From Bacteroidota bacterium (GTDB lineage Bacteria; Bacteroidota; Bacteroidia; Bacteroidales; FEN-979), in NCBI GenBank assembly GCA_026391735.1, contig JAPLDL010000001.1, positions 1-64,000 of the forward strand: a stretch of DNA of 64,000 nucleotides. The letters are read 5' to 3'. The notes beneath the pieces are model-generated. The model saw nothing but the letters and a program-made list of their open reading frames with translations, searched no databases and was not told where the DNA came from. Made by a program: the position numbers and the translations under genes. Below are positions 5,133-46,417 of this stretch, in pieces. The stretch's first letter is position 1, and each line of letters begins with the position of its first letter.

Positions 5133-6617
5133 ATGAAAAAGTCGGGAAAGATCATCCTGTTAATCTTATCAGCCTTGATGCTGGTTTACCTGTTGCTGAT
5201 GATCCCTGATTCCCCTAAAGAAGAACCGAAACTGGAGGGGGGGAAAACACCCTTTGCATGGAATAAAGATGATCTTTGGAAAGGGCTAGAAAAAACTTTC
5301 CTTGAAGAACGAATTGCAGATCCGGTAAATCGTAATGTTCGCCTGACAAAACTTAAAGACACTGCAGAAACACTCTTGAGGGTATCGCAATGCAAACCGC
5401 TGAGCTGCGATGATCCGGTGTTTTTTTCACTAATGTACAATTTTTTCGCCATGGCCCCGGTGATTGCATCAGCGAAGGATCAAACCGACTGGTTCGCCGG
5501 GTATTATAACAAGGTGAGAAACAGCATCAAGCTGCAGTCTCAGCACTGGGACATGAACAAGGCAGATTCCAGAAATACGATTTACCAGGTCCTTTACGGC
5601 ATGCGGGCCGCTTTGGAGGAAGTACTTTTACAGCTGCCGGATATGAGATTCAATCCCGCGATGTTTATTAAGGATGAGCCTAGTGTCACGCCATCGGCGA
5701 AGATCTTCGGCATCACAGTACATAGCGGTGACCTCCTTGTTTCCCGGGGAGGAGCTGTGGTTTCGGCCCTTATATCAAGAGGGAACGATTATCCGGGCAA
5801 TTTTTCCCATGTTGCAATGATCTATGTTGATAAAAAAACAAGTATTCCGTACCTGGTCGAAGCCCATATTGAAAGGGGTGTTGCTATATCTTCGGTAAGA
5901 CAATATATCGCTGATAAAAAACTTAGGTTCATGGTGATGAGACCCCGGGCCGACCTGCCCCTGCTAATAAGTGATCCAATGACACCCCATAAAGCCGCTG
6001 AATACATTTACCATGAAGCCCTGAACAAGCATATTCCTTATAATTTTAAAATGGACCTGTATGATACGTCTGCCATGTTTTGTTCTGAAGTCGGTTATCT
6101 GGCTTATGAGCATTACGGACTTCACCTCTGGCAGGCCATCTCGACCATATCGTCCCCCGGTGTGATCAGGTTGCTTCATGCATTCGGAGTGGAGAATTTT
6201 GTTACCCTGATGCCTTCTGATCTTGAATATGATCCCCAACTCTGCGTGGTGGCTGAATGGAGGGATCCCCAGACCTTGTTCAAAGACCATATTTATAATG
6301 CGGTCATGGATGTCATCCTGGAAAATCAAGATAACTATCAGGATATCCTGATCAACCCCTGGATGTTACCTGTTGCCAGGCTGGCCAAGGGCTATTCTAT
6401 GCTTCTTAACCTGTTCCACAGGGAAGGACCTGTGCCTGAAGGATTATCTGCAACACAGGGCTTGAAAACAGATGCACTTAACAAGATTCATTTAAAAATC
6501 CGTAATTTAACGGAGGGAAAAATTAAACACTTCATTGAAAAAAATGGCTATATCCCGCCATACTGGCAGATTGTCACAATGGCTAAGGAAGCATACAAAC
6601 ATGAAACATTAATGTAA
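5133..6617 (+). CDS. Permuted papain-like (YiiX/YebB-type, NlpC/P60 superfamily) lipid-associated enzyme
   Basis: SGDLLVSRGGAVVSALISRGNDYPGNFSHVAMIYVD (His motif) and later YDTSAMFCSEVGYLAYE (Cys motif): circularly permuted order. Confidence 0.8.
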   Translation: MKKSGKIILLILSALMLVYLLLMIPDSPKEEPKLEGGKTPFAWNKDDLWKGLEKTFLEERIADPVNRNVRLTKLKDTAETLLRVSQCKPLSCDDPVFFSLMYNFFAMAPVIASAKDQTDWFAGYYNKVRNSIKLQSQHWDMNKADSRNTIYQVLYGMRAALEEVLLQLPDMRFNPAMFIKDEPSVTPSAKIFGITVHSGDLLVSRGGAVVSALISRGNDYPGNFSHVAMIYVDKKTSIPYLVEAHIERGVAISSVRQYIADKKLRFMVMRPRADLPLLISDPMTPHKAAEYIYHEALNKHIPYNFKMDLYDTSAMFCSEVGYLAYEHYGLHLWQAISTISSPGVIRLLHAFGVENFVTLMPSDLEYDPQLCVVAEWRDPQTLFKDHIYNAVMDVILENQDNYQDILINPWMLPVARLAKGYSMLLNLFHREGPVPEGLSATQGLKTDALNKIHLKIRNLTEGKIKHFIEKNGYIPPYWQIVTMAKEAYKHETLM

Positions 6618-6622
6618 ATAAA

Positions 6623-7249
6623 ATGGCTATGAAAAAAATCGGACTTTTCTTATTTGCTTTTACTGCAGCGCTTATCTTTGGTCCTGTCTGTTTTTCACAG
6701 GCAGGTAAAGGTTCGGCAGGCGCCGTGGTCACTAAAGGCGATTCAAAAACAGTTTTTGATCAGCTTTCACAGGCTCAGGAAGCAGCTTCCATCCTGCAGG
6801 CGGTTCAAAAGCAATTCCAATCGTTTACCCTCAACATTCCCGAGAACATCCTTGTTAATTACGGGTTTAAAAATCGTGAAGAATTCAAGAATGTCACTTT
6901 TGACACACCTTTTAGAGTATACATTATCAAAGATTCAAACATCGTATTTGGATCATCATGGAGAGTGCCTGTTGTTGTCGATAATGAATACAGGGCTTTG
7001 CTGACAATCATTCTTGTGAACGGAGATTATCAGGTTGCCGATTTCGGAGCAAGGGTACTGGCAGGGGAATTGTTTGCAAAGAAATCAGCTCAGACTTGTG
7101 GTTTACTCAGGGTTTATGAACTAAGATCTGACTATCTTATAGAAACATCTTCCTCCAATCAGGTACAGTTTATACCTGTTCAAGGTCCCGGGGACAAAAG
7201 GCTTGGTTTACACGATATTTTCAATTTGATTAAAAATAAGGAGCTATGA
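6623..7249 (+). CDS. Hypothetical secreted protein
   Basis: Signal peptide MKKIGLFLFAFTAALIFGPVCFSQ; ATGA overlap with the downstream cysteine protease gene. Confidence 0.7.
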   Translation: MAMKKIGLFLFAFTAALIFGPVCFSQAGKGSAGAVVTKGDSKTVFDQLSQAQEAASILQAVQKQFQSFTLNIPENILVNYGFKNREEFKNVTFDTPFRVYIIKDSNIVFGSSWRVPVVVDNEYRALLTIILVNGDYQVADFGARVLAGELFAKKSAQTCGLLRVYELRSDYLIETSSSNQVQFIPVQGPGDKRLGLHDIFNLIKNKEL

Positions 7250-32167: not shown

Positions 32168-33781
32168 ATGAACAACAGATTGACTGAATCAACTGCCTGG
32201 AAGGCATTGGAAATGCACTTCCGGGAACTCAGGGATTTATCACTTCGCACCATGTTCGTCCAGGACCCTGGAAGGTCGGAACGCTTCAGTGTTAAGGATC
32301 AGGGTATTTTATTTGACTATTCAAAACACAGGATCACTGACCAGACTCTCAGCTTGCTTTTTCAGCTGGCAGGGGAAAGGGGGCTTGCCGAGAAGATTGA
32401 AGCGATGTTCTCGGGTGAAAAGATCAATATCACCGAGAACAGGGCGGTGCTGCATACTGCCTTACGGGCGCCAAAGGGTTCCGCGATCATGGTTGATGGC
32501 CATAACGTGGTTCCTGACATACATGAAGTCCTGGAAAAAATGGCCGGCTTTTCAAACCAAATTCGCAGCGGGGCATGGAAAGGCTATACAGGTAAACCGA
32601 TAAGGAATATTGTAAACATCGGTATCGGGGGGTCTGATCTGGGCCCGGTAATGGCATATGAAGCCCTGAAATTTTATACCCAACGGAATCTTACATTCCG
32701 TTTTGTATCCAATATCGACGGAAGTGATTTCACCGAGGCTGTTCATGATCTGCAAGCCGAAGAAACCTTGTTCATCGTGGCCTCCAAGACGTTCACCACC
32801 CTGGAGACTATGACCAATGCACGCACGGCACGATCATGGCTGCTGGAGAAGCTGCAAAACGGGCAAGCCGTGGCCCGTCATTTTGTGGCACTTTCAACGA
32901 ACGAAAAAGAAGTAAGCGAATTCGGGATCGATACGCGAAATATGTTTGGTTTCTGGGACTGGGTGGGAGGAAGGTATTCCATGGATTCAGCTATCGGATT
33001 ATCCACCATGATCGCGATAGGGCCGGATAATTTTTATTCAATGCTGGAGGGCTTTCACCGGATGGATGAACATTTCCGCCATACGCCGTTTGAAAGGAAT
33101 ATCCCGGTAATCATGGGCTTGCTTGGTATCTGGTACATTGATTTCTTCGGGGCTATGACCCAGGCCATACTGCCCTATGACAATTACCTTAAACGTTTCC
33201 CTGCTTACCTTCAGCAACTGACCATGGAAAGCAACGGTAAATATGTCACTCTTGACGGGGAAAGGGCCGATTACAATACCGGGGCGGTATACTGGGGGGA
33301 GCCAGGAACTAACGGACAGCATTCGTTTTACCAGCTGATCCACCAGGGAACATCGCTTATCCCTTGTGATTTTATTGGATTCAGGACTTCGTTGAACCCC
33401 CTTCCGCTTCACCAGGACTATCTCGTGGCCAATATGATCGCACAGGGGGAGGCCCTCGCTTTCGGGAAATCCGCCGACGAAGTAAAAAAGGAGAATGTAC
33501 CTGATAGCCTGGTTCCGCACAAAGTCTTTGAAGGTAACCGGCCTTCTTCAACCTTCTTTATGGAAAAACTTACTCCTGAATACCTTGGCAAGCTTGTAGC
33601 CATGTATGAACATGCAGTGTATACACAGGGAGTGGTGTGGGGTATCAACCCATTTGACCAGATGGGAGTGGAACTGGGCAAAGTTTTGGCGATGAAAATT
33701 ATCCCCGAACTTCAGGATGTCCAAAAAGCCGTAAGCCATGATGGTTCAACCAACAATCTTATAAGGTATTACAGGGGGTAG
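32168..33781 (+). CDS. pgi: Glucose-6-phosphate isomerase
   Basis: [69 protein letters not shown]. Confidence 0.97.
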
Positions 33782-34300
33782 CTTTTCACGGCATAAGTGG
33801 CATATATTCCGGTTCTTCTGATCAATATCTTCAACATAGGTGCTTGACCGCATGACGCAGGTTGGCGTCATACAATGGATCAACCCGAAAGTATGGCCGA
33901 GTTCATGGATCACTTCTTTGGTGAACCTTTCCGGCAGCAGTTTTTCATCCGGCTCGATACCATATCGCTCATTGCTCAGCCGGTATAATGAGGCAATTCC
34001 GGTTTGCCCGTTCAGAACAGCCTGTCCGAAAATATAGGTGAGGATCGGGATAAACAGGTCAACGCTGAACAAGCCAATAGTTTTGAGGCTGTCGGGCATG
34101 GCCAAACTGTCCAGCTTGTGCAAAATCTTATTCCCATTGTACTGTCTTCTCCCGGGGTCGAAAAATTCGCTGAGATCAAGATGGGATTCTTTAAAATTTA
34201 CAGGAAATTTGAATTCCTGCCTGACTGCCTCCGCTATCTGTTCAAGAAGTTGCTTTCCAAAGTACCCATAAGAGATCAGAGTGATATGTTGTTGAGCCAT
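33746..34300 (-). CDS. Archaemetzincin-family zinc metalloprotease
   Basis: [46 protein letters not shown]: HExxHxxxxxH followed by the four-Cys second zinc site. Confidence 0.9.
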
Positions 34301-34365: not shown

Positions 34366-35706
34366 TTATTCTTCGGGTTTAAGATCATATTTCCTGATCT
34401 TGTTGTAAAGCGTTACCCTGTCGACTTTCAATGCTTTGGCAGTTCTTGTGATGTTCCAACTGTATTTATTCAGGATCTGGCGGATGAAGGTTTTTTCGAA
34501 ATCATCCAGGCTTTCTATTGAATTATCTATCATATCCTTTCCGAAGGGAAGATCTTTCAGGGTGATCTTCTTCCCGTTCCCAATCACGATCGCCCGTTCG
34601 ATCAGGTTTTCCAGTTCACGTATATTTCCAGGGAAGGGATATTCCTCCAGCCTCTGCATGGCCGCTTCGTCGATGATGATCAGCGGTTTGTTCATTGCAT
34701 TGCAGTATTTTTTAATAAAGTAATCGACCAGCAGGGGAATATCTTCAAGCCGTTCACGCAGGGGAGGTACGTTAATATTCACGACGTTGAGGCGGTAGTA
34801 AAGATCCTCCCTGAAAGTCCCCTGATCGACCATGCTTTTCAGGTCTCTGTTGGTGGCGCAGATGACCCTGAAATCCGACGATGTTTCTTTGTTACCTCCG
34901 ACCCTGACAAATGTCTTTGTTTCAAGCACCCTCAGCAGTTCAATTTGCATCTTAGGTGAGATAGTTGCTATTTCATCCAGGAAAATAGTACCGCTGTCGG
35001 CCATTTCGAACCTCCCTTTACGGTTATACATAGCCCCGGTAAAAGCTCCTTTCTCATGGCCGAACAATTCGCTTTCAAGCAGGCTTTCGGTGAGGGCGCC
35101 GCAGTGAACGCTTACCAGGGGATAATATTTCCGGGGGGAATTTGCATGAATAGCACGGGCGATAAGCTCTTTCCCGGTCCCGCTTTCGCCGGTGATAATG
35201 ACAGAAGTGTTTGATTGTGCCACGCTTTCGACCTGTTTCAGCACTTTTTTCATGGCCTCACTGTTCCCGATGAGGTCTTCGACGCTGTCAAGGGAAATGA
35301 CTTTGTTTTTCAACGTTTCGTTCTCCTGAGCCAGGAGGATCTGCTTTGAGGCATTACGGATAAGATGGGACAGGTCATCCGGATCAAATGGTTTTGTGAC
35401 ATAATCAAAAGCCCCGTCCTTCAGGGCCATAACTGCCGTATTGACCGATGCGAAAGCGGTCATTACGATCACGATGGCATCGTTCCTGAGGGATTTGATC
35501 CGCCTGAGCATCTCGAGCCCGTCCATGCCGGGCATTTTGATATCGGCAAGGATGATATCAAAATAGGAGGATTCGATAAGCTGTAGCGCTTTCTTGGCAT
35601 TTTCGGCGCATTCCACCTGGTAGCCGTCTTCAACAAACCAGTTGCTTAATGAATCCCTGACCGATTCTTCATCGTCAACGACCAGGATTGAAATCTTTTT
35701 AGCCAT
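34366..35706 (-). CDS. Sigma-54-dependent NtrC/AtoC-type response regulator
   Basis: Receiver domain, GESGTGKELIARAIH, ELFGHEKGAFTGAMYNRKGRFE (GAFTGA), C-terminal Fis-like HTH. Confidence 0.95.
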   Translation of the reverse strand: MAKKISILVVDDEESVRDSLSNWFVEDGYQVECAENAKKALQLIESSYFDIILADIKMPGMDGLEMLRRIKSLRNDAIVIVMTAFASVNTAVMALKDGAFDYVTKPFDPDDLSHLIRNASKQILLAQENETLKNKVISLDSVEDLIGNSEAMKKVLKQVESVAQSNTSVIITGESGTGKELIARAIHANSPRKYYPLVSVHCGALTESLLESELFGHEKGAFTGAMYNRKGRFEMADSGTIFLDEIATISPKMQIELLRVLETKTFVRVGGNKETSSDFRVICATNRDLKSMVDQGTFREDLYYRLNVVNINVPPLRERLEDIPLLVDYFIKKYCNAMNKPLIIIDEAAMQRLEEYPFPGNIRELENLIERAIVIGNGKKITLKDLPFGKDMIDNSIESLDDFEKTFIRQILNKYSWNITRTAKALKVDRVTLYNKIRKYDLKPEE

Positions 35707-35718
35707 TATATCTTTATC

Positions 35719-37416
35719 TTAATTTCTGATCAGGGGTAAGGTTATTGAGAAGGTTGTGCCATGACTGGGTTCGGACTTTACCTGGATCTTACCGTTATGG
35801 CTCTGCATGATACCATGAACAATCGCCAGTCCCAGGCCTATCCCGCTGGCGCTTTGCTTGGTCGAGAAGAAAGGTTCGAACACATGGGGGATGTCTTCCG
35901 CAGATATCCCGATACCATTGTCAACAATTTCAAACCTTACCGTTTCCTCGTTTGGATTTAGTGTGCGGATGAGGATCTCCCCGTTCTCATGCAACGCTTC
36001 GGTGGAATTCACGAGCATGGCCACGCAGGCTTGCTTGATCTGGTTCGGGCTGCAGTAGATCAGGTCGGAGGTTGCTGCGAAATCAGTGTAAAAGTGAATA
36101 TTTGCAATTTTTATCGGATGCGTCATCAGCTCATAGGTCTCCTGAAGGACCTCGTGGAGATGCCTGGGTTCAAAGTCTTCCTGGTCTTTCTTCGAAAACT
36201 CAAGCAGCCCTTTGACAATATCTCCGCATCGTTTCGCCTCGTTTTCGATCAGCTTAAGGTGTTTCAGCATGGAATCCCTTTTGCTTGCGTACAGTTCGGG
36301 ATTGCTCAGCTGTTTATAGATAAGTTTTGTGTAAATGAGGATACCCGATAATGGGTTATTGATTTCATGGGCCACCGAGGAAGATAATTTCCCGAGTGAG
36401 GCAAGCCGTTCAATATGGATCATTTCATTCTGGGCGGCGCTTAATTCTTCCGATTTTTTCTGGACTTTATATTCCAGTTGCTGGGACCAGTTTTCCAGTT
36501 CGCTGGTCGCTGCCTGAAGGTTATCAAGCATCTCGTTGAAAGCCTGGGAAACCATTTTCATGTCATCGAGCTGGTTAGGTTTGATTTCCAGGCGGGTGCT
36601 TGTATCGCCGTTTGCAACGGCAATACTTGCTTTAACCAGGGCATTCAGGGGCCTTTTGATCCTTTGGCGTGTAAACATGATAAGAACGCCTAACAGGACA
36701 AGAGTAGTAAGTATAGCCAGGAGGAAAAATTCGGTTGAAGATTTCCTTATGGCTGAATCAAGCTCGGCCAGGGGAATTTTAATGATAAGGGAACCTAAGA
36801 CCTCATCGGTGACAGGATGGGCATGGCATGAACTTTCGTAACAGGATTTCTCATTCAGGATCGGCAGCTTGATCAGCAGATGTCGGCTGTTGTTGTCGTT
36901 ATGGTTCATCCTGCAATAGCTTTCGGCATCGATGATCTTATAATGTTTTCCTTTCCCGGGAAACATTGCTTTCAGGTTATTATGGCAGCTGATGCAGTTT
37001 GGGTTGCTGTGATAATTGTTTGTACTGGATGGAATGGAGGTGTATACCAGGTTGTCCTTGATGTCATACATGTTCACTTCGTCAATCCCCGGCATGGTGT
37101 TGATGATGTCGAGGGTGTTCTGGAGAGTACTTTTGTCATTCTCGAGCATGGAATGATACAGGGAGCCTCCGACGATTGAGCCGATGTTGTTTCCGTTCTG
37201 CCGGATCACGGTATTCAGGTACTGCTCGTTGACTGATCTGAAAATGATGCTGAAGGAAACAAAAAGGAAAACGGAAGATACAAAGATGATAAAAACGACC
37301 CTTGAGTAGATCGAGGATCGGGCCTGAACATATTTTCCGAATAAGGACTTTAGAGTACTGTTCTTTTGCATAGGTTTATTATCACTGCAATATAAAAAAA
37401 ACCGGTGATTTGACAC
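35719..37416 (-). CDS. Sensor histidine kinase with periplasmic c-heme-motif domain, HAMP, HisKA, HATPase
   Basis: NPNCISCHNNLKAMFPG (CXXCH) and KSCYESSCHAHP (CX4CH) between two TMs; SSSVAHEINNPLSGILIY H-box; DNGIGIS, GLGLAIVHG. Alternative start at 37371. Confidence 0.92.
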   Translation of the reverse strand: MSNHRFFLYCSDNKPMQKNSTLKSLFGKYVQARSSIYSRVVFIIFVSSVFLFVSFSIIFRSVNEQYLNTVIRQNGNNIGSIVGGSLYHSMLENDKSTLQNTLDIINTMPGIDEVNMYDIKDNLVYTSIPSSTNNYHSNPNCISCHNNLKAMFPGKGKHYKIIDAESYCRMNHNDNNSRHLLIKLPILNEKSCYESSCHAHPVTDEVLGSLIIKIPLAELDSAIRKSSTEFFLLAILTTLVLLGVLIMFTRQRIKRPLNALVKASIAVANGDTSTRLEIKPNQLDDMKMVSQAFNEMLDNLQAATSELENWSQQLEYKVQKKSEELSAAQNEMIHIERLASLGKLSSSVAHEINNPLSGILIYTKLIYKQLSNPELYASKRDSMLKHLKLIENEAKRCGDIVKGLLEFSKKDQEDFEPRHLHEVLQETYELMTHPIKIANIHFYTDFAATSDLIYCSPNQIKQACVAMLVNSTEALHENGEILIRTLNPNEETVRFEIVDNGIGISAEDIPHVFEPFFSTKQSASGIGLGLAIVHGIMQSHNGKIQVKSEPSHGTTFSITLPLIRN

Positions 37417-37478
37417 CAGTTTATTTTATTGAATTAATGATCCTGCATGCTGGGTCAAATATATGAACCCGATACAGC

Positions 37479-38207
37479 TTATTCAGGAGTTTCCCTCGGC
37501 ATAAGGAACGCCTTCTGGAAATCCTGCCAAATCTCTTCCGGCAGTTCAGGCAGTAAGTGGTCCCTGAGTTCGCCACCGTCCTGGAAAGCCACCCCGGAAT
37601 CTTCAGGAGTGTACCTGGGCACTGACACAGCAAGGAAATCCTTGAACCGGAGCAACTCCATCTGCGACCAATCGACGGCCTCATCGGCCAGGTAATACGA
37701 GCTGGTCTCAGCGTTCCAGCTCACCGGCTTGATCTTATATATCCAGCCTGAGCCATAAGGATCCTCATTCATTATACCGGGCTGGTCTTCCAGGGCTGGA
37801 TTTGCACCTGTGATCATCCCTGAGATGGGTGAATAGATTTCCAGCACCTTCCCGTCATGCTCTATCAGGGACATCAGTTCGCCTTTGGCAATCTTTTCTC
37901 CTTGTTTTTTAAGGAATTTCACACTTACCTCCCCTGTGATATGAAGAAGAAGATCATCAATACCCACATTGGCTATACCTGATTTGGCCAGGTGAACCCA
38001 GGTGTGGTTACTGCTGTGAAAAACCCCCTGGGGGATTTTCAGGATGCTTGTTGTTAGTATACCTATGGCTTTTCTGAACTGCCGTTTAATTTTCACTTTC
38101 CTGTTGAGAAATATCGAGAAAGGAACAAGCAGGGCCAGAAAAGCTATAATAATAAGGTATTCCATCCCTTTCGTCTCAAAAATATTGTAATAACTGAAGC
38201 CGTCCAT
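37479..38207 (-). CDS. Membrane-anchored GcvH-like protein
   Basis: N-terminal TM then SNHTWVHLAKSGIANVGIDDLLLHITGEVS...GELMSLIEHDGKVLEIYSPISGMITGANPAL...MNEDPYGSGWIYKIKP. Confidence 0.85.
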   Translation of the reverse strand: MDGFSYYNIFETKGMEYLIIIAFLALLVPFSIFLNRKVKIKRQFRKAIGILTTSILKIPQGVFHSSNHTWVHLAKSGIANVGIDDLLLHITGEVSVKFLKKQGEKIAKGELMSLIEHDGKVLEIYSPISGMITGANPALEDQPGIMNEDPYGSGWIYKIKPVSWNAETSSYYLADEAVDWSQMELLRFKDFLAVSVPRYTPEDSGVAFQDGGELRDHLLPELPEEIWQDFQKAFLMPRETPE

Positions 38208-38244: not shown

Positions 38245-39471
38245 TTATTCATGATGTTTTGCCCAGGAGGGAGCATCCCGCAAAACGGGCATGCGATTGA
38301 TTACCCACCTGAAGATCCAGAGTTCTGTGAAAATTACTGTAAGAGTCACAACCACTTCCATCCAGGAAGGAACGTAATGTACAGCCGCATCCCATCTGAA
38401 GCCGATCACTGTGACATTCAGCCTGTTCAGTATGATGCCGAGTATGGTGAGGATAGAGGCAATACGGACTAGTTTTATATTATTTCGCCTGTAGCTGTAG
38501 AAAAATAGCATCATGGGGAGGAATACGAAACCCAGCATCTCAAGAAGGTACCAGTATCCCATCGGGGTGTTGATAAGGTCCCAATGCCTTTCATGAATAA
38601 ACACCAGCACTTGCAGGAAAAAGTAAGCAAACATAGCTCCTGCGCAGATCTTTGATAAGCCTAAAATTATGCCGGTTTGGGCCTGGTGGTCTTTTTCGCT
38701 GATCTGTTTAAAGAAAACCTTGTGGCTGATGGATCCTTCGAAAATAACCATTGAAAGACCGGCGAAAATACTGGAAACAAAGAACATGATAGGGATGAAT
38801 TCGGAGTACCAGAGCGGATGGATCTTTTCTTTGGCCATGAGGTAAAGTGCTCCGAGTCCTGACTGGTGAAGTGTCGACAAGGTGATCCCGAAAATGACGG
38901 CTGCAACGGTCATACTCGAGAGTATCCTGTGGATCCGCCTTGCCCCGAGCCATTCAGCAATCGCAGGTGAGAATTCAATAAGCTGGGCTATCATATACAG
39001 CAGGAAATGCCATGCAACAAGGAAGAGAACAGAGTTCACCCCGAAGTTATTCCCGATGATAGGGTTTATGACATTCCATGGGCGGCCCAGATCGAGCAGT
39101 AGAGCCCCGGCATAAAACACGTAAGCCAGAAACCCATTAAGAACGGTAACCCTCACAATGGAGCGGTACTGCTTCATGTTCAGGATGTATACCATGAAAG
39201 TGAGCACATAAGCACCGCCGGCAAAAGCGACGCCTGTAACTACATCAAAACCGATCCATAAACCCCAGGGGACTTCCTGGGTGAGATTGGTTATAGAGCC
39301 GATACCTTTCCAGAACCGGATCACAATGAGCACAATACCAAGCAAAATAACCGGGACCGAAATAATATTAAAGGGTGTAAGGATTTTACCTTTGGGCTTT
39401 AGTTCGCTCAGCAAGAATTTCCAGATGGGCTTGCCGTCATTGTCTGCCGCTATTGAATAATCTTTGCTCAT
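38245..39471 (-). CDS. HybB/NrfD-like integral membrane quinone-interacting subunit
   Basis: Multi-TM protein with QEVPWGLWIGFDVVTGVAFAGGAYVLTF and LDLGRPWNVINPIIG; overlaps the HybA-like gene by ATGA. Confidence 0.88.
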   Translation of the reverse strand: MSKDYSIAADNDGKPIWKFLLSELKPKGKILTPFNIISVPVILLGIVLIVIRFWKGIGSITNLTQEVPWGLWIGFDVVTGVAFAGGAYVLTFMVYILNMKQYRSIVRVTVLNGFLAYVFYAGALLLDLGRPWNVINPIIGNNFGVNSVLFLVAWHFLLYMIAQLIEFSPAIAEWLGARRIHRILSSMTVAAVIFGITLSTLHQSGLGALYLMAKEKIHPLWYSEFIPIMFFVSSIFAGLSMVIFEGSISHKVFFKQISEKDHQAQTGIILGLSKICAGAMFAYFFLQVLVFIHERHWDLINTPMGYWYLLEMLGFVFLPMMLFFYSYRRNNIKLVRIASILTILGIILNRLNVTVIGFRWDAAVHYVPSWMEVVVTLTVIFTELWIFRWVINRMPVLRDAPSWAKHHE

Positions 39472-40331
39472 ACTTCTTCCTCCCCGCTTTGATTTTCTTT
39501 TTTTGTGGCCTGTTGAATACCGAGTAATAGTGCCGGAAATAGTACGAATATTGAAGGCACACTATAAAGAAATCCCTTGGTTAGCGCAGGATAGGACCCT
39601 TTATGAAGGTTGGTTTTCATGCCAAGTTCTTTAAAAGGAACTGGTGAAAGATACATCCAGCAGGTACCGCCGGCTTCGTGCTCTCCGTAAAGGTAATCGA
39701 CATAAAGTTTTGGATTTTCAACAATCCGTTTTCGGGCCTCGCTCAGCAATTGGCGGCGGGTTCCGTAAAAAAGGGCATCGTTGGGGCAATTTGCCGCGCA
39801 GGCGGGCATTTCTCCTGTTTTCAGCCTGTTAAAGCACATATCGCATTTTTGGATCTTAGGGTTGGCGCTGTGAAATTCGAATTTAGGGATATCGAACGGA
39901 CAGGAGATCATGCAATACCGGCATCCCATGCATTTATCACCCCTCCAGATGACCGGTCCGGCTTTCGTTTTATGCATGGCCTGGGTAAGACAGGCTGCAA
40001 CGCAGGCAGGTTCATTGCAATGCATGCACTGCATCTTTATAAAAACTTTTCCTTTGGAGGTATTGTATTCATTGACAACCGTACGTTTGGTTTCACTCGT
40101 TTTCCTCACCGGAGGAAGGTCCTTCGCGGGATCGGGCGGGGGGAGCCCATTGGCGTCGGCACAGTCATATTCGCAGCCATGGCATCCTTTACAATGTGCC
40201 GAATCATATAGAATTCCACGGAACTCTATATCATTGCTCCCTTTGGGGGCCGCCTGCAGCTCTCTGCCTATGGCCAGAGCCGTCCCGGTTATACCCAAGA
40301 CTTTGAAAAACCCACGTCGGTTAATGCTCAT
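39468..40331 (-). CDS. HybA-like periplasmic 4x[4Fe-4S] ferredoxin-type subunit
   Basis: TAT-like INRRGFFKVLGITGTALAIG; four Cys quartets (CKGCHGCEYDC, CMHCNEPACVAAC, CMGCRYCMISC, CDMC...CAANC); C-terminal TM. Confidence 0.9.
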   Translation of the reverse strand: MSINRRGFFKVLGITGTALAIGRELQAAPKGSNDIEFRGILYDSAHCKGCHGCEYDCADANGLPPPDPAKDLPPVRKTSETKRTVVNEYNTSKGKVFIKMQCMHCNEPACVAACLTQAMHKTKAGPVIWRGDKCMGCRYCMISCPFDIPKFEFHSANPKIQKCDMCFNRLKTGEMPACAANCPNDALFYGTRRQLLSEARKRIVENPKLYVDYLYGEHEAGGTCWMYLSPVPFKELGMKTNLHKGSYPALTKGFLYSVPSIFVLFPALLLGIQQATKKENQSGEEEV

Positions 40332-40371: not shown

Positions 40372-42066
40372 CTACCGCGAATTATTCATGAACTTTGTTT
40401 GGAAATCTTCCCATACTTCCGGACCAAGGTCGGCCAGTACATGGTCTTTGAGCAGACCCCCGTCCTGGAGGACGATTCCTGCATACCTGGGCGACCCGGG
40501 CTGAGCCGAAAAGGCAAGAAAATCCCTGAGACGGCTGAATTCGCCGCTTAACCAGGTCTTGAATTTGTCGGCCATCGACATGAACTCAATTTCCCTCAGC
40601 CAGTTTTCGGGTTCAATGGTGTATACCCAGCCGCCGGCATAAGGAGACGTATTGATCACCGATGAATTGACCAGCAATTCATGGTTCTGGGTTTTGATAG
40701 TCCCTGATACAGGTGAGTATATTATAAGATGTTTCCCTTTTTGAATCAGAATGCAAAGCTGGTCTCCCTTCTTGATCCTGATGCCCGGGTTCTTCATCCC
40801 GATGCTGGTGATAGGTCCGGTAACATGCTGCAGGAAATCATTGATGCCGATTTTTACTGTCCCGTCCTGCTCCATGAAGGCCCAGGTATGGGTTTTGTCA
40901 AAATACAACCCCTTGGGAAGGATCAGATCTTTCTCGTCAAATGCTGAGGGCTTTATGTAAATGGAATCCATGAGCCTTGTCTTGTTCTTCCGGTATCGGC
41001 GGATGATAAGGTCCAGGAAGAAACTACATGCGACTAAAAGAACGAGGATCAGTAAAACATTCTTTGCGACAGAATTCGTTTCCTTGGGGGTCTCCGTATA
41101 AACCGGGGTGCTGATCAGTTTGTCCATCTGTGATTGCCTCTCGTTGTTAACCAGATCGGAATACCCATTGGCAGGAAGCAGATCCTGCCCTGTAGTAAGA
41201 ACCCAGTTCAGAAAAGCAATCTCCGGCACTCCTGCAGGCCTTGTTTTGGATATGCAATAAATGTTGTTGGTCAATGCTTTCGGGTATTTTCCGATCCATA
41301 CTCCTCTGGTGAAATCCTGGAAATTATCATAGATATTCTCCATATAATCCAGTTTCCTATTACCGTTCTTGTCGATCGGCATTAGCAGGATATTTTCGGA
41401 AAACGTCGAAGAATTCGGGTTGAGGATATCAGTAAGCCTGCAAAATCCTATTGCGTATGGATCCTTCTGAACTACCGAGATCAAAGTTTTAGGATCCTCA
41501 GTTTTCAGTTCCTCAATGAAAGACCGGTCGGCCTGAGTAAAATTGCAAACCCCTGTTTTCGTAAAATCATCATTCAGGATAATATACTTCACCGGGGATG
41601 GCTGTCTGTTATCGAGTAAAGTTCCCCATTCCATTTTACCCGGGACCTTCAGACTTTGGGCTAGAGCGGAGGGGGAAATACCTTTCTCGAAAATTTCTTT
41701 AAGGAAGGGATTTCTTGAGCTGATCACGGGAACTATAATCTCCCTGCCCACTACAATCTGGAACATAGGGCCCTGCTTTTCCGTTGCAGGAAGTTCCCTG
41801 GAAACGAAACAAATATTTCCCCCTGCATTAATAACGGAGCGGATACCAGTCTCTTCAGTTTTAATGACATTAACAATCTGCCCCGGATTTGCAATGGCAT
41901 ATTCTACTGCCCATCGGCTAGCCAGGTCATAAAGTTCTGGACTGCTGTAAACACTGATTGACTGAGGTGCAGGCTGATTGTTTTTTGTATTTGCTCCCTT
42001 ACTATTTAAACTGCTGCAAAAGAAAATTGCAAGCAAGCAAAGAATGGGGATGATTTTTGTTTTCAT
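40372..42066 (-). CDS. Periplasmic PstS-type substrate-binding domain fused via TM to a GcvH-like domain
   Basis: Signal peptide; SISVYSSPELYDLASRWAVEYAIANPGQIVNV...; TM KNVLLILVLLVACSFFLDLIIRRYRKNK; GcvH-like FDKTHTWAFMEQDGTVKIGINDFLQHVTGPITSIG...LIIYSPVSGTIKT...SPYAGGWVYTIEP. Confidence 0.85.
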   Translation of the reverse strand: MKTKIIPILCLLAIFFCSSLNSKGANTKNNQPAPQSISVYSSPELYDLASRWAVEYAIANPGQIVNVIKTEETGIRSVINAGGNICFVSRELPATEKQGPMFQIVVGREIIVPVISSRNPFLKEIFEKGISPSALAQSLKVPGKMEWGTLLDNRQPSPVKYIILNDDFTKTGVCNFTQADRSFIEELKTEDPKTLISVVQKDPYAIGFCRLTDILNPNSSTFSENILLMPIDKNGNRKLDYMENIYDNFQDFTRGVWIGKYPKALTNNIYCISKTRPAGVPEIAFLNWVLTTGQDLLPANGYSDLVNNERQSQMDKLISTPVYTETPKETNSVAKNVLLILVLLVACSFFLDLIIRRYRKNKTRLMDSIYIKPSAFDEKDLILPKGLYFDKTHTWAFMEQDGTVKIGINDFLQHVTGPITSIGMKNPGIRIKKGDQLCILIQKGKHLIIYSPVSGTIKTQNHELLVNSSVINTSPYAGGWVYTIEPENWLREIEFMSMADKFKTWLSGEFSRLRDFLAFSAQPGSPRYAGIVLQDGGLLKDHVLADLGPEVWEDFQTKFMNNSR

Positions 42067-42102: not shown

Positions 42103-42118
42103 TGCAATAATGATGCCA
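42103..42118 (-). promoter_or_regulatory. Sigma-54 (-24/-12) promoter upstream of the PBP-GcvH fusion operon
   Basis: Minus strand TGGCATCATTATTGCA: GG-N10-GC spacing, consensus TGGCAC-N5-TTGCW with one mismatch; predicted start site about 25 nt before the ATG at 42066. Confidence 0.75.
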
Positions 42119-42274
42119 GAGCAAAAAAATGAATGTAAATACAAGAAAACCAGTGAAATACAAATTTAATGTTTAAAAAATAAACAAGACGAAATGTTGA
42201 ATAAATATACAGTTATTTCATTCATCATGTTTAAAAGATTGAATATCAATGATATTAAAGCCACTGTTTAATTA

Positions 42275-42290
42275 TTCAACAGATGTTGAA
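42275..42290. promoter_or_regulatory. Candidate enhancer (UAS) for the NtrC-type regulator
   Basis: Perfect inverted repeat TTCAACA-GA-TGTTGAA about 157 bp upstream of the sigma-54 promoter; half-sites TGTTGAA at 42195 and TCAACA at 42295. Confidence 0.55.
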
Positions 42291-42398
42291 AAAATCAACA
42301 ATGAATAAAATATGAAAAATGTGGATTGAACTTCTTCTATACGGTGAGAGGTCCTGCGAGTGAAGCTGTTTATCGTATTATGGAATAGAGATGTAAGG

Positions 42399-44468
42399 TT
42401 ATAAATAGAATATCAGCCTGATAAACGCTCCAGGGCTATCCGGGTTATTACCCGTGACAATACTGCCTTCATGAGCATCAATGATCAGTTTGACCAGAGC
42501 GAGGTCAAACCCGACAGTACCGGAGTACTGTTTATCCATATAAGTGAGGTACAGGTTGATTTTCTCGGGGATTCCTTCGGGGAATCCAGCGCCCTGATCC
42601 TGCACTGTGCATAACAGAGATTCCTTTTGCAAATTGACCGATATAGCAATAATTCCCTCATAAGGAGAATACCGGATGGCATTCCCGATCAGGCATTTCA
42701 ATGCAATCTTCAAGAGTGCGCAGTCTCCTTGTATCTCGGTTTCAAGTGCATTTCCTTCCTGATGAATAACTAATTTCTTAGGCTGCAATGCATCCTGCAT
42801 TTCGCTGATCGTTTCGCCGACGAGCTGCTTTATCCAAACAGGTTCCTTAACAAAGCCCGACTGTGCCTGCATCTCGGTAAGCAGCAAAGCAGCTTTTGAG
42901 AATGTTTCAAGCCTTGTGGCGGACGTATTCATTTCATCAATTACGTGTGAGAATTCCGATGACTGCAATTCCTCTTTCAGCAGCTGGGTAAATCCCAGGA
43001 TACCGTTAAGAGGGGTCCTTACTTCATGGCTTATAAGATGAAGGAATTCGGTTTTGGACTCGTCGAGGGAGACCAGCGATTTGTTGATCCGTTCGAGATG
43101 GTCATGAGTGGTTTTAAGTTCTGACGACATCTCTTCGATCTGGTTGAACTCTCTGGAGAATTTGCGGGAAAACAATGCAGCCTGGGAGAAAAACAATAAC
43201 AAGAACCCATAAGGAAGGGAATTAAAGGTATTGACGATGTAGTTATCAAAAAGCACCTCATTAATGGCAGCAAGGAACATCAGCGTATATCCGGTGAGAA
43301 TAATTGCAGCACTGTCCTGTCGCTGCACAGTTGCCCTAAGGACTACAACAAAGGTGTATACCAGGAGCCCCAGTGAATACAATTCCATATAAATCACCAG
43401 GGAGGAGGAAAAAGAGACAGGTGTTACACAAGTAAGTAAAGACATTGCAGCGGCGACAAGAGTCGTCAGGAGCAATACCGGTTTTGGAAAAGCCTTCCTG
43501 AAATGGGAGTTTATATAATAGACTGCAAAGGGTAATAGCAGGTAGAAACTTAAGAAGTCAAGCCTTACTATCAGTTCCCAGGGTATCCCAGGAAACAATG
43601 AGACCAGGAACTGTTCGCCAGTCACCAGGCTTCTGATGACCGAAAGCAAAAGGAAGATGCTGAAAAATAAGGCTGGTTTTTCCTGCCTTCTGAAGAGGAA
43701 TAGGGTAAAGAGGTATATCATCATAAAGATAAAAGCGCCGCAAAGAAAGAATTCCAGAACCATAGCCCTTTCTCTTGAGCGCTTTATATCCTTGGCTAAT
43801 CCCAGTCCGATCGAATACCACAATCCTCCTTTCCAGAAATTAAAATTTGATACCCTGACCACGATACTGATCGTGTCGGAGCCGGGGGGCAGCAAGGTGA
43901 CAAGAGGAGCAAATTCAGGCCGCGTTTCGGCTTTTGTTCTGCCCGGGATTCCATTTCGGGCTATCAGGGAGTCGTTCACAAACAAAGTATATGCACAACC
44001 CGCTCCCGGTATTTTCAGAGCCAGTTGTTGTGGGCCCCTGTTCAGCAGGACTTTGAGCCGGTAGCTTGAATACCCTGTTCCAGGTAGTTTTTCCGATCTC
44101 AGGTGATACCCTTTCCATGCCCGGGGAACTTTTATAAAATACCGGTCCCGAACAGAATCAAATCCATGTGAACTAAGAAATTCACCATAGCGGAAGTCCC
44201 AGAGTCCGTCAAGACGGATAATCCCGTTATCCTGAAAGTCCCATTTCCGCAAATCAATCACACCGTTAACGGCTTTCGGTACACGGTTTTGTTGTTCAGC
44301 TGAGCAGGATCCCAAAATGCAAGACAAAGCAAGCAGTAAAATTACGAACGGGGCAAATCCTTGAATTTTGCATATCATTATGGACCAATGCCTTATATTT
44401 TCTCTTTTGCTCTTCACTCGTTCAACTGATTTGGGCCGGCCGGCACTGAAAAAATAAGTTTTATGCAA
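42399..44468 (-). CDS. 7TM (7TMR-DISM-like) sensor histidine kinase
   Basis: N-terminal carbohydrate-binding-like region, seven TM-like segments, TEFLHLISHEVRTPLNGILGFTQLL H-box, DQGAGF G1 box. Confidence 0.88.
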   Translation of the reverse strand: MHKTYFFSAGRPKSVERVKSKRENIRHWSIMICKIQGFAPFVILLLALSCILGSCSAEQQNRVPKAVNGVIDLRKWDFQDNGIIRLDGLWDFRYGEFLSSHGFDSVRDRYFIKVPRAWKGYHLRSEKLPGTGYSSYRLKVLLNRGPQQLALKIPGAGCAYTLFVNDSLIARNGIPGRTKAETRPEFAPLVTLLPPGSDTISIVVRVSNFNFWKGGLWYSIGLGLAKDIKRSRERAMVLEFFLCGAFIFMMIYLFTLFLFRRQEKPALFFSIFLLLSVIRSLVTGEQFLVSLFPGIPWELIVRLDFLSFYLLLPFAVYYINSHFRKAFPKPVLLLTTLVAAAMSLLTCVTPVSFSSSLVIYMELYSLGLLVYTFVVVLRATVQRQDSAAIILTGYTLMFLAAINEVLFDNYIVNTFNSLPYGFLLLFFSQAALFSRKFSREFNQIEEMSSELKTTHDHLERINKSLVSLDESKTEFLHLISHEVRTPLNGILGFTQLLKEELQSSEFSHVIDEMNTSATRLETFSKAALLLTEMQAQSGFVKEPVWIKQLVGETISEMQDALQPKKLVIHQEGNALETEIQGDCALLKIALKCLIGNAIRYSPYEGIIAISVNLQKESLLCTVQDQGAGFPEGIPEKINLYLTYMDKQYSGTVGFDLALVKLIIDAHEGSIVTGNNPDSPGAFIRLIFYL

Positions 44469-46417
44469 GCCCCGGGTTCGTTCCTGTTATTGCCTGCGTC
44501 TATCGCAGCTCCATGTGCATCAATGATCAGCTTCACCAAAGCCAGGTCGAGCCCGACATGACGGTCAATATGTTCTTCACCCAGGCTGAAAAGCTTAAAC
44601 ATGTTTTGCAGTGCTTTATCCGAGAAACCTGATCCTGAGTCAGTAAATAAGAGAGTGACTTTGCCATTGCCAGCCTCGGTGCTCACTGTTACTTCTCCTT
44701 CCGGCTGCGAATACTTTATTGCGTTATCAAGGATACTTTCACAACAGATCAACAGAAGAACAGGATCGCCTGTTACACCAGCCTCTGCCTGATCTATGGA
44801 GAGTCTGACCCTGATATTCTTTTCTTCAATTTTCGGTTTAAGTTTCAACAATGCACTCTCAACCAATTCAGTCAGGATTACCGGATTTTTCTCAAGGGCT
44901 ACCTGCCGGTCCTGAAGCTCAGTGATCATCAACGCAACCTTGGAGAATTTTTCAAGTCGTTTCGCTGAAATATCCAGGTATTCAATGATCCCTGAAAGAT
45001 TAGCCGATTGAAGGCGGGATTTAAGAATACCGGTGTATCCCAGGATACGGTTCAGCGGCTTTCTGATATCGTTGCTGATCATATGCAGGAACTCTCCTTT
45101 AGCCTTATCCAGCTGGCTCAAAGCGCGGTTTGCTTTTTCAATATTGGAGTTAGCCCATTTCAGTTCCCCCGAAAGGGTTTCGATCTGGTGAAATTCCCTG
45201 GAGAATTTGCGTGAAAAGAGGATGGTCTGGGAAACGAACATGCCAAGCACCCCCACCGGCAATGTAAACCAGGCCTGGGTTATATCATTATAAAACAGGA
45301 TCTCATTTACAGTAGCAAGGAGGAGGAATATATAACCACAAAGGAAAACCCATGCATTATCACGTTTGCGGATAATCGAGAGGATAATGATATAGAAAAA
45401 GTAAAAAGCGATCACCAGGCAGTAAAGTTCGGCATAGGGGACAAATAGGGAGTAGAATATTCCGCGTGTGAATAACGTAATAAAACTCAAAAGGCTGATT
45501 ACCGTGAGATTTAAACGGAGCAGTAAACGGGAAACTTCAGCAGGGAATAATGACCGGAAATACATGATAAAGACCGGGATAAGCCAGTAAAAGCTCAGCA
45601 GGTCGATTTTGTTTATCAATTCCCATCCTGAACCAGGAAAGAGGTTGAGCAGCGTGATTTCTCCCGTGACCGTTGTCCGTATGCCGCAGATCAGCAGGAA
45701 AAGGCTGAAATACAAGGCGGCTTTTTCTTTTGGCCGGGAGATAAAAAATGTGACCAGGTAAAGGAAAAGAAAAAGGCATGCACCGGCCAGGATGTATTCT
45801 CCGATCATTTGCTTTTCAAGTTGGCGGATGACCATTTCCCGTGGCCCCATCGTAATAGGGTACCATAGACCGGCTTTTGAGTAATGAAAATTTGAAACAT
45901 GAAAAACCAGGGAGACTGTATCTTGTTGGGGAGTAAATTCAACCAAAGCCACTTTTATTCCCGGGATGGTCGCTTTTTTTGTTGTACCTGCCACACCGCA
46001 TCGGGCAATGACCGTGTCATTAAGCAGCAGGGTGTATGCAGTACCAATAACAGGTATATGTAAAGCCAGGTGATTCAAATGCCGAGGTAACAGGATCTTA
46101 AGCCTGTAGCTCGCATATCCGGTATCGGGCAGGTGCTTGTTTTTTCTCAGATATTTATTCCATTCCCCAGGCACGGTTGCATAAACCGGATGGGCCAATG
46201 AATCGAAATCCCTTGATCCCAGGAATCTGTTAAAACAGAAAGCCCATTGGCCATTTAGCTGCAAAATAGAACCGGCTGATAGGGTATCCCCGCGCAGATC
46301 GAGAAGGCCTGCCGAAACCTGTTTTTCTGACGGATTGTCTTTGCCCCGGGAACAGGAAACCAGGAGCAGGAAACAGCAAAAGATTACTATGTAATGGACA
46401 CGAAGTTTCATTACCAT
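44414..46417 (-). CDS. 7TM (7TMR-DISM-like) histidine kinase paralog lacking the H-box histidine
   Basis: Same architecture; H-box reads GEFLHMISNDIRKPLNRILGYTGIL; ATPase boxes LDNAIKYS and DSGSGF present. Confidence 0.87.
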   Translation of the reverse strand: MVMKLRVHYIVIFCCFLLLVSCSRGKDNPSEKQVSAGLLDLRGDTLSAGSILQLNGQWAFCFNRFLGSRDFDSLAHPVYATVPGEWNKYLRKNKHLPDTGYASYRLKILLPRHLNHLALHIPVIGTAYTLLLNDTVIARCGVAGTTKKATIPGIKVALVEFTPQQDTVSLVFHVSNFHYSKAGLWYPITMGPREMVIRQLEKQMIGEYILAGACLFLFLYLVTFFISRPKEKAALYFSLFLLICGIRTTVTGEITLLNLFPGSGWELINKIDLLSFYWLIPVFIMYFRSLFPAEVSRLLLRLNLTVISLLSFITLFTRGIFYSLFVPYAELYCLVIAFYFFYIIILSIIRKRDNAWVFLCGYIFLLLATVNEILFYNDITQAWFTLPVGVLGMFVSQTILFSRKFSREFHQIETLSGELKWANSNIEKANRALSQLDKAKGEFLHMISNDIRKPLNRILGYTGILKSRLQSANLSGIIEYLDISAKRLEKFSKVALMITELQDRQVALEKNPVILTELVESALLKLKPKIEEKNIRVRLSIDQAEAGVTGDPVLLLICCESILDNAIKYSQPEGEVTVSTEAGNGKVTLLFTDSGSGFSDKALQNMFKLFSLGEEHIDRHVGLDLALVKLIIDAHGAAIDAGNNRNEPGACIKLIFSVPAGPNQLNE

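Follow-up and report, generated by a model that had tools for sequence, protein, structure and literature searches.

A predicted sigma-54 promoter and phased palindrome array ahead of a membrane redox gene cluster in Bacteroidales

Introduction

The closest described counterparts of the locus presented here are the sigma-54 promoters of the NtrC, ZraR, and AtoC type. The locus shares with them a -24/-12 element, 17-bp palindromic enhancer sites 70-185 bp upstream, and a linked GAFTGA response regulator and kinase. A palindrome layout of 6-5-6 suits Fis-type helix-turn-helix (HTH) activators such as NtrC. Unlike the known promoters, this one has four sites at fixed spacing, and in most orthologs the C at -12 is replaced by A. 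The target operon also differs from those of AtoC, NtrC, and ZraR.

Within the Bacteroidota, sigma-54 promoters have been reported for the heat-shock genes grpE and groES, with sigma-54 dependence stated for the B. thetaiotaomicron grpE (PMC12316311). The family studied here has a comparable site upstream of grpE-dnaJ, TGGCA-N6-TTG, with the same GG-to-G spacing, but these target genes are unrelated to the operon described below.

For the encoded proteins, the nearest relatives are the Hmc complex of sulfate reducers and HybA/HybB of hydrogenase 2. The iron-sulfur (FeS) subunit has its best score with HmcB (305 bits, cut-off 420) and the NrfD-like subunit with HmcC (401 bits, cut-off 550), which places both below Hmc membership. 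Unlike Hmc and HybA/HybB, the cluster includes two GcvH-like membrane proteins alongside these subunits. The cluster showed no gene for a hydrogenase or a multiheme cytochrome, and no description of the operon or its promoter was found in the open-access literature.

The gene cluster

The window is the whole 64,000-nucleotide stretch of DNA that was analyzed. It contains a same-strand cluster made up of the following genes.

40372-42066, minus strand: g1, a membrane protein and the target gene of the promoter, with a substrate-binding-like N-terminal part (weak PstS-type match) and a C-terminal GcvH-like domain
39468-40331, minus strand: g2, a 4Fe-4S protein of the HmcB/HybA type
38245-39471, minus strand: g3, a NrfD-like membrane subunit (HmcC/HybB-like), best match HmcC
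37479-38207, minus strand: g4, a second membrane-anchored GcvH-like protein
35719-37416, minus strand: g5, a histidine kinase whose sensor part carries CxxCH and a second cysteine-histidine motif; its start is probably the ATG at 37371
34366-35706, minus strand: g6, a NtrC-type response regulator with GAFTGA and a Fis-type HTH, the presumed activator
33746-34300, minus strand: an M54-family peptidase gene, found after the regulator in most orthologous loci

The initial annotation placed a GAFTGA activator at the end of the operon, and the last two genes of the cluster are indeed a histidine kinase and a NtrC-type regulator with this motif. The regulator scores above cut-off for PF00072, PF00158, and PF02954, the domains of a NtrC-family enhancer-binding protein. 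Its best scores are to the AtoC, NtrC, and ZraR models, all below the curated equivalog cut-offs. GAFTGA is present in 49/49 regulators, and the activator gene is close by wherever the contig extends far enough. In the kinase, CxxCH is invariant (45/45) and the further cysteine-histidine motif, CX4CH in the window, is found in 43/45. These motifs suggest that the sensor part is a c-type heme sensor.

Other kinase genes occur nearby. Loci L130 and L134 have the kinase gene in two tandem copies ahead of the regulator. In the window, two adjacent 7TMR-DISM histidine kinase genes (42399-46417) precede the promoter on its own strand.

The promoter core

The core is a 16-nucleotide element.

42103-42118, minus strand: -24/-12 sigma-54 promoter core, TGGCATCATTATTGCA; GG and TTG are kept in orthologs

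Read on the minus strand from 42118 to 42103, it is composed of GG, the 10 nt CATCATTATT, and GC, and it has 1 mismatch to TGGCAC-N5-TTGCW. The near-consensus motif with exact GG-N10-GC spacing reported in the initial annotation is therefore read as described. Counting 12 nt past the C of the -12 GC, the predicted +1 is at ~42092 and the ATG of g1 (42066-42064) is 26 nt further on, in agreement with the start proposed earlier, about 25 nt before the first ATG.

The motif alone is at chance level. In the 64-kb window, there are 2 sigma-54 sites with one mismatch (shuffle mean 2.1) and 34 with two mismatches (33.3 expected), with no enrichment in either class. The significance of TGGCATCATTATTGCA comes only from its conservation and from the enhancer array.

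Conservation of the core is extensive. Full-length g1 orthologs are found in most of 43 family genomes, and 30 upstream regions (L005-L034) were examined. None of the 30 departs from the GG at -24 or from the TTG of the -12 element. Mean pairwise identity is 92% in the promoter core and 26%, the level of unrelated DNA, in the flank upstream of the array. A g1 profile search of other families in the order gave 34 loci from 23 families (L130-L163), where the best site was picked by score within about 300 nt. Across the window family and these 23 others, 45/64 upstream regions have a -24/-12 element scoring at least 9/10, compared to ~1.3% of shuffled controls. The marks of a sigma-54 (RpoN) promoter, i.e., a conserved -24 GG and G of -12 at fixed spacing, are seen in 30/30 family regions and in the 23 other families. 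Nearly all 34 outside-family loci have the same layout of promoter and array.

The layout is also kept, whole or in large part, in seven loci that lack g2-g4 (L035, L036, L038, L143, L146, L150, and L158); in these, the interval from g1 to the kinase gene gave no FeS, NrfD, or g4 match. In L157-L163, g1 is the GcvH-like half alone (about 230 aa), with promoter and array still in place.

The enhancer array

A 17-bp palindrome, TGTTKA-N5-TMAACA, occurs up to four times upstream of the -24/-12 element. The four upstream activating sites (UAS) of the window are listed with their matches to the palindrome.

42284-42300, minus strand: UAS1, TGTTGATTTTTTCAACA, 12/12
42265-42281, minus strand: UAS2, TGTTGAATAATTAAACA, 12/12, 19 bp from UAS1
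42195-42211, minus strand: UAS3, TGTATATTTATTCAACA, 11/12
42170-42186, minus strand: UAS4, TGTTTATTTTTTAAACA, 12/12

The 30 family upstream regions contain 112 palindromes matching at 10/12 or better, against 6.4 in shuffles (shuffle maximum 14). Their positions are nearly fixed. In 30/30 family genomes, UAS1 and UAS2 are exactly 19 bp apart, UAS1 is 181-185 bp from the GG, and UAS3 is 94-96 bp from it. UAS4 lies 69-71 bp from the GG in most family genomes and is absent or weak in several.

Outside the family, the array has moved as a block by ~11 bp in some loci. Within a search range limited to 78-112 bp, the UAS3-GG distance at 57 loci across families is 93-96 bp (48 loci), 83-86 bp (8 loci), or 105 bp (1 locus), classes that differ by about one helical turn. 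A Rayleigh test of this distance at a 10.5-bp period gives R = 0.88 for the 57 loci and 0.82 outside the family, with p-values that ignore shared ancestry. The upstream enhancer sites of a sigma-54 promoter are represented here by four phased palindromes. What is directly observed is the set of elements, how they are conserved, spaced, and phased, and how closely they are tied to the locus of g1, kinase, and regulator.

Between UAS4 and the promoter, the family loci L005-L034 share a conserved TTGATTTTCT...TTA block, ~35-45 bp upstream of the GG. It may be a bend site. It does not match the IHF consensus, and no such consensus was found between the array and the start codon.

The sigma-54 switch at 42103-42118 is almost certainly genuine, as judged by comparative sequence, because the g1 promoter and the phased palindromes recur in about two dozen bacterial families. 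Ortholog conservation, the phased array, and the nearby activator gene strongly support the proposed sigma-54 promoter.

Genome-wide scans

A scan of 294 genomes used a composite pattern in which a palindrome is followed, after a gap of 62-90, by a -24/-12 element. It gave 19 matches in 18 genomes. Fifteen of the 19 are at g1 orthologs, 14 by coordinates and one in G171, where a partial g1 comes next. The backward control of the pattern had 0 matches, and a control with a spacer one base longer had 1, away from g1. The window itself has no exact composite match because UAS3 departs from the consensus at one position.

Searching genome-wide for TTGGCA-N6-TTGMW gave 21 matches that are unusable as a regulon list, since 18 of them are within genes. 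The only other exact pair of UAS and promoter in the window's own genome is in a phage-like region of contig C18 (L085 9425-9537), where a perfect UAS and a perfect TTGGCAC-N5-TTGCA are 96 bp apart. The strand has no downstream ORF of 100 aa, and this pair was set aside as a chance occurrence or a small-RNA promoter.

The -12 base and RpoN

The base that follows TTG is A in 49, G in 8, C in 5, and T in 2 of the 64 loci. Within the family, it is A in 28/30, and C is found only in the window and L010. The GG expected to be conserved on ortholog alignment is kept, but the C of GC is not (5/64), a departure from the classical consensus. By this comparison, the exact GC is peculiar to the window genome and a few others.

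The grpE-dnaJ upstream site of the same family also mostly lacks the C at -12 and is likely a sigma-54 heat-shock promoter of this form. Taken together, the base counts at the 64 loci, the grpE-dnaJ site, and the report on grpE (PMC12316311) indicate that the lineage appears to tolerate or prefer A at -12; if grpE is a guide, a C there is not strictly needed. In the RpoN of G002, the RpoN box (ARRTIAKYR) looks ordinary.

The grpE-dnaJ site is a conserved [CT]TGGCARRTTTTTTGA/T element located, in most family genomes, ~38-40 nt before grpE (L066 / L096-L125; G000 contig C13:41720-41736). Another sequence, TTGGCATAAAAATTGAA, is ~50 nt before an Hsp20-like gene (L059 1501-1517; G000 contig C7:1901-1917).

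The initial annotation named a genome without RpoN as evidence against its call. RpoN was not found in the window's own assembly, which is 80% complete, but it is present in 59/60 genomes searched, this assembly being the sole exception, and in 7/7 genomes of the genus. In G002, rpoN is at 5417-6931 of locus L095, and contig C22 of the window's assembly begins at the match to ~8776 of that locus. The contig ends ~1.8 kb short of the syntenic place of rpoN. The missing gene, a point against the promoter, fits a contig edge just short of this place and is no sign that the organism lacks RpoN.

Transcription of the kinase and regulator genes

A terminator-like structure is located within the cluster.

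37399-37422, minus strand: terminator-like hairpin and T run, between g4 and the kinase gene

The 39-nt stretch around it has a folding energy of -13.9 kcal/mol (z -6.6). Of 18 family loci, 15, the window among them, have such a hairpin before the kinase gene, against 6.8% of shuffles and 0/46 regions upstream of the FeS gene. With this conserved hairpin ahead of the kinase gene, the kinase and regulator genes probably form a transcription unit of their own in the window family, with read-through possible.

Right after the hairpin and ahead of the kinase gene comes TATATTGCAGTG. A block of hairpin, T run, and TAnnTTGCA recurs before the kinase in many family genomes and may join a terminator with a promoter of the kinase gene.

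The initial annotation took the activator, as the last gene of the operon, to be autoregulated. For this, all genes would form one polycistronic operon transcribed from the promoter at 42103-42118, and the activator would increase its own expression. The activator does lie in the same-strand cluster, gene order is conserved, and the gap between g4 and the kinase gene is essentially nil in family loci L037, L039, and L053. Outside the family, hairpins are less common (6/32 loci). Against this, the conserved hairpin divides the structural genes from the kinase and regulator genes, and g4-kinase gaps of 100-300 nt are common. A single autoregulated operon is possible but doubtful. In some other families, feedback could come about in another way, through a UAS-like site found before the kinase gene (11/50 loci, compared to 3.0 in shuffles, maximum 8).

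The initial annotation was correct in calling the promoter, on better grounds than those it gave. Within its interpretation, the exact GC and the autoregulatory loop are the weak parts.

Proposed mechanism

The reading preferred here is that g1, with the FeS-NrfD-GcvH genes where present, very probably has a sigma-54 promoter driven by the neighboring NtrC-type regulator at the four-palindrome array. RpoN holoenzyme would occupy the -24/-12 element. The adjacent kinase with c-type heme motifs would phosphorylate the regulator, presumably on sensing a redox or heme-ligand signal. The phosphorylated regulator is predicted to bind the four 17-bp palindromes, UAS1/UAS2 at ~165-185 bp and UAS3/UAS4 at ~70-95 bp upstream of the GG, and to reach the polymerase through DNA looping on one helix face. 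This would result in transcription of g1 and, where present, of the FeS-NrfD-GcvH genes behind it. Positive autoregulation would require read-through past the conserved terminator.

The palindromes could instead be bound by another, unlinked regulator, either an activator or a repressor. They are AT-rich and simple, and binding by g6 is a prediction. However, palindromes, promoter, and kinase-regulator pair co-occur across 24 families, even where g2-g4 are missing, and exact palindromes are few in the window's own genome, occurring at 9 places, 3 of them at the array. The 6-5-6 layout also fits the Fis-type HTH of the neighboring regulator. An unlinked regulator is improbable. Still less probable is a housekeeping-type promoter of the phylum (TTTG / TAnnTTTG) with an accidental likeness to -24/-12. 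The AT-rich region does have sigma-70-like matches, but housekeeping-type matches are no better than in shuffles and are scattered in position, whereas the GG and TTG never vary and keep their phase with the palindromes.

Significance

We put at about even the prospect that the locus represents an undescribed order-wide sigma-54 switch. In such a switch, an enhancer with four sites at fixed, helically phased positions would be read by a regulator that answers to a kinase bearing c-type heme motifs. It would use a TTGA form of the -12 element particular to the lineage, and it would control an uncharacterized, quinone-linked complex with GcvH-like parts.

Sigma-54 regulation in the Bacteroidota, the group to which gene content points, is thinly studied. 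Here, a motif call at chance level has become a well-constrained regulatory site for which an activator, its binding sites, and the transcription start are predicted. The array with its shifts of one helical turn and the changed base at -12 lend themselves to simple tests. The locus also associates a kinase bearing c-type heme motifs with an uncharacterized membrane redox complex.
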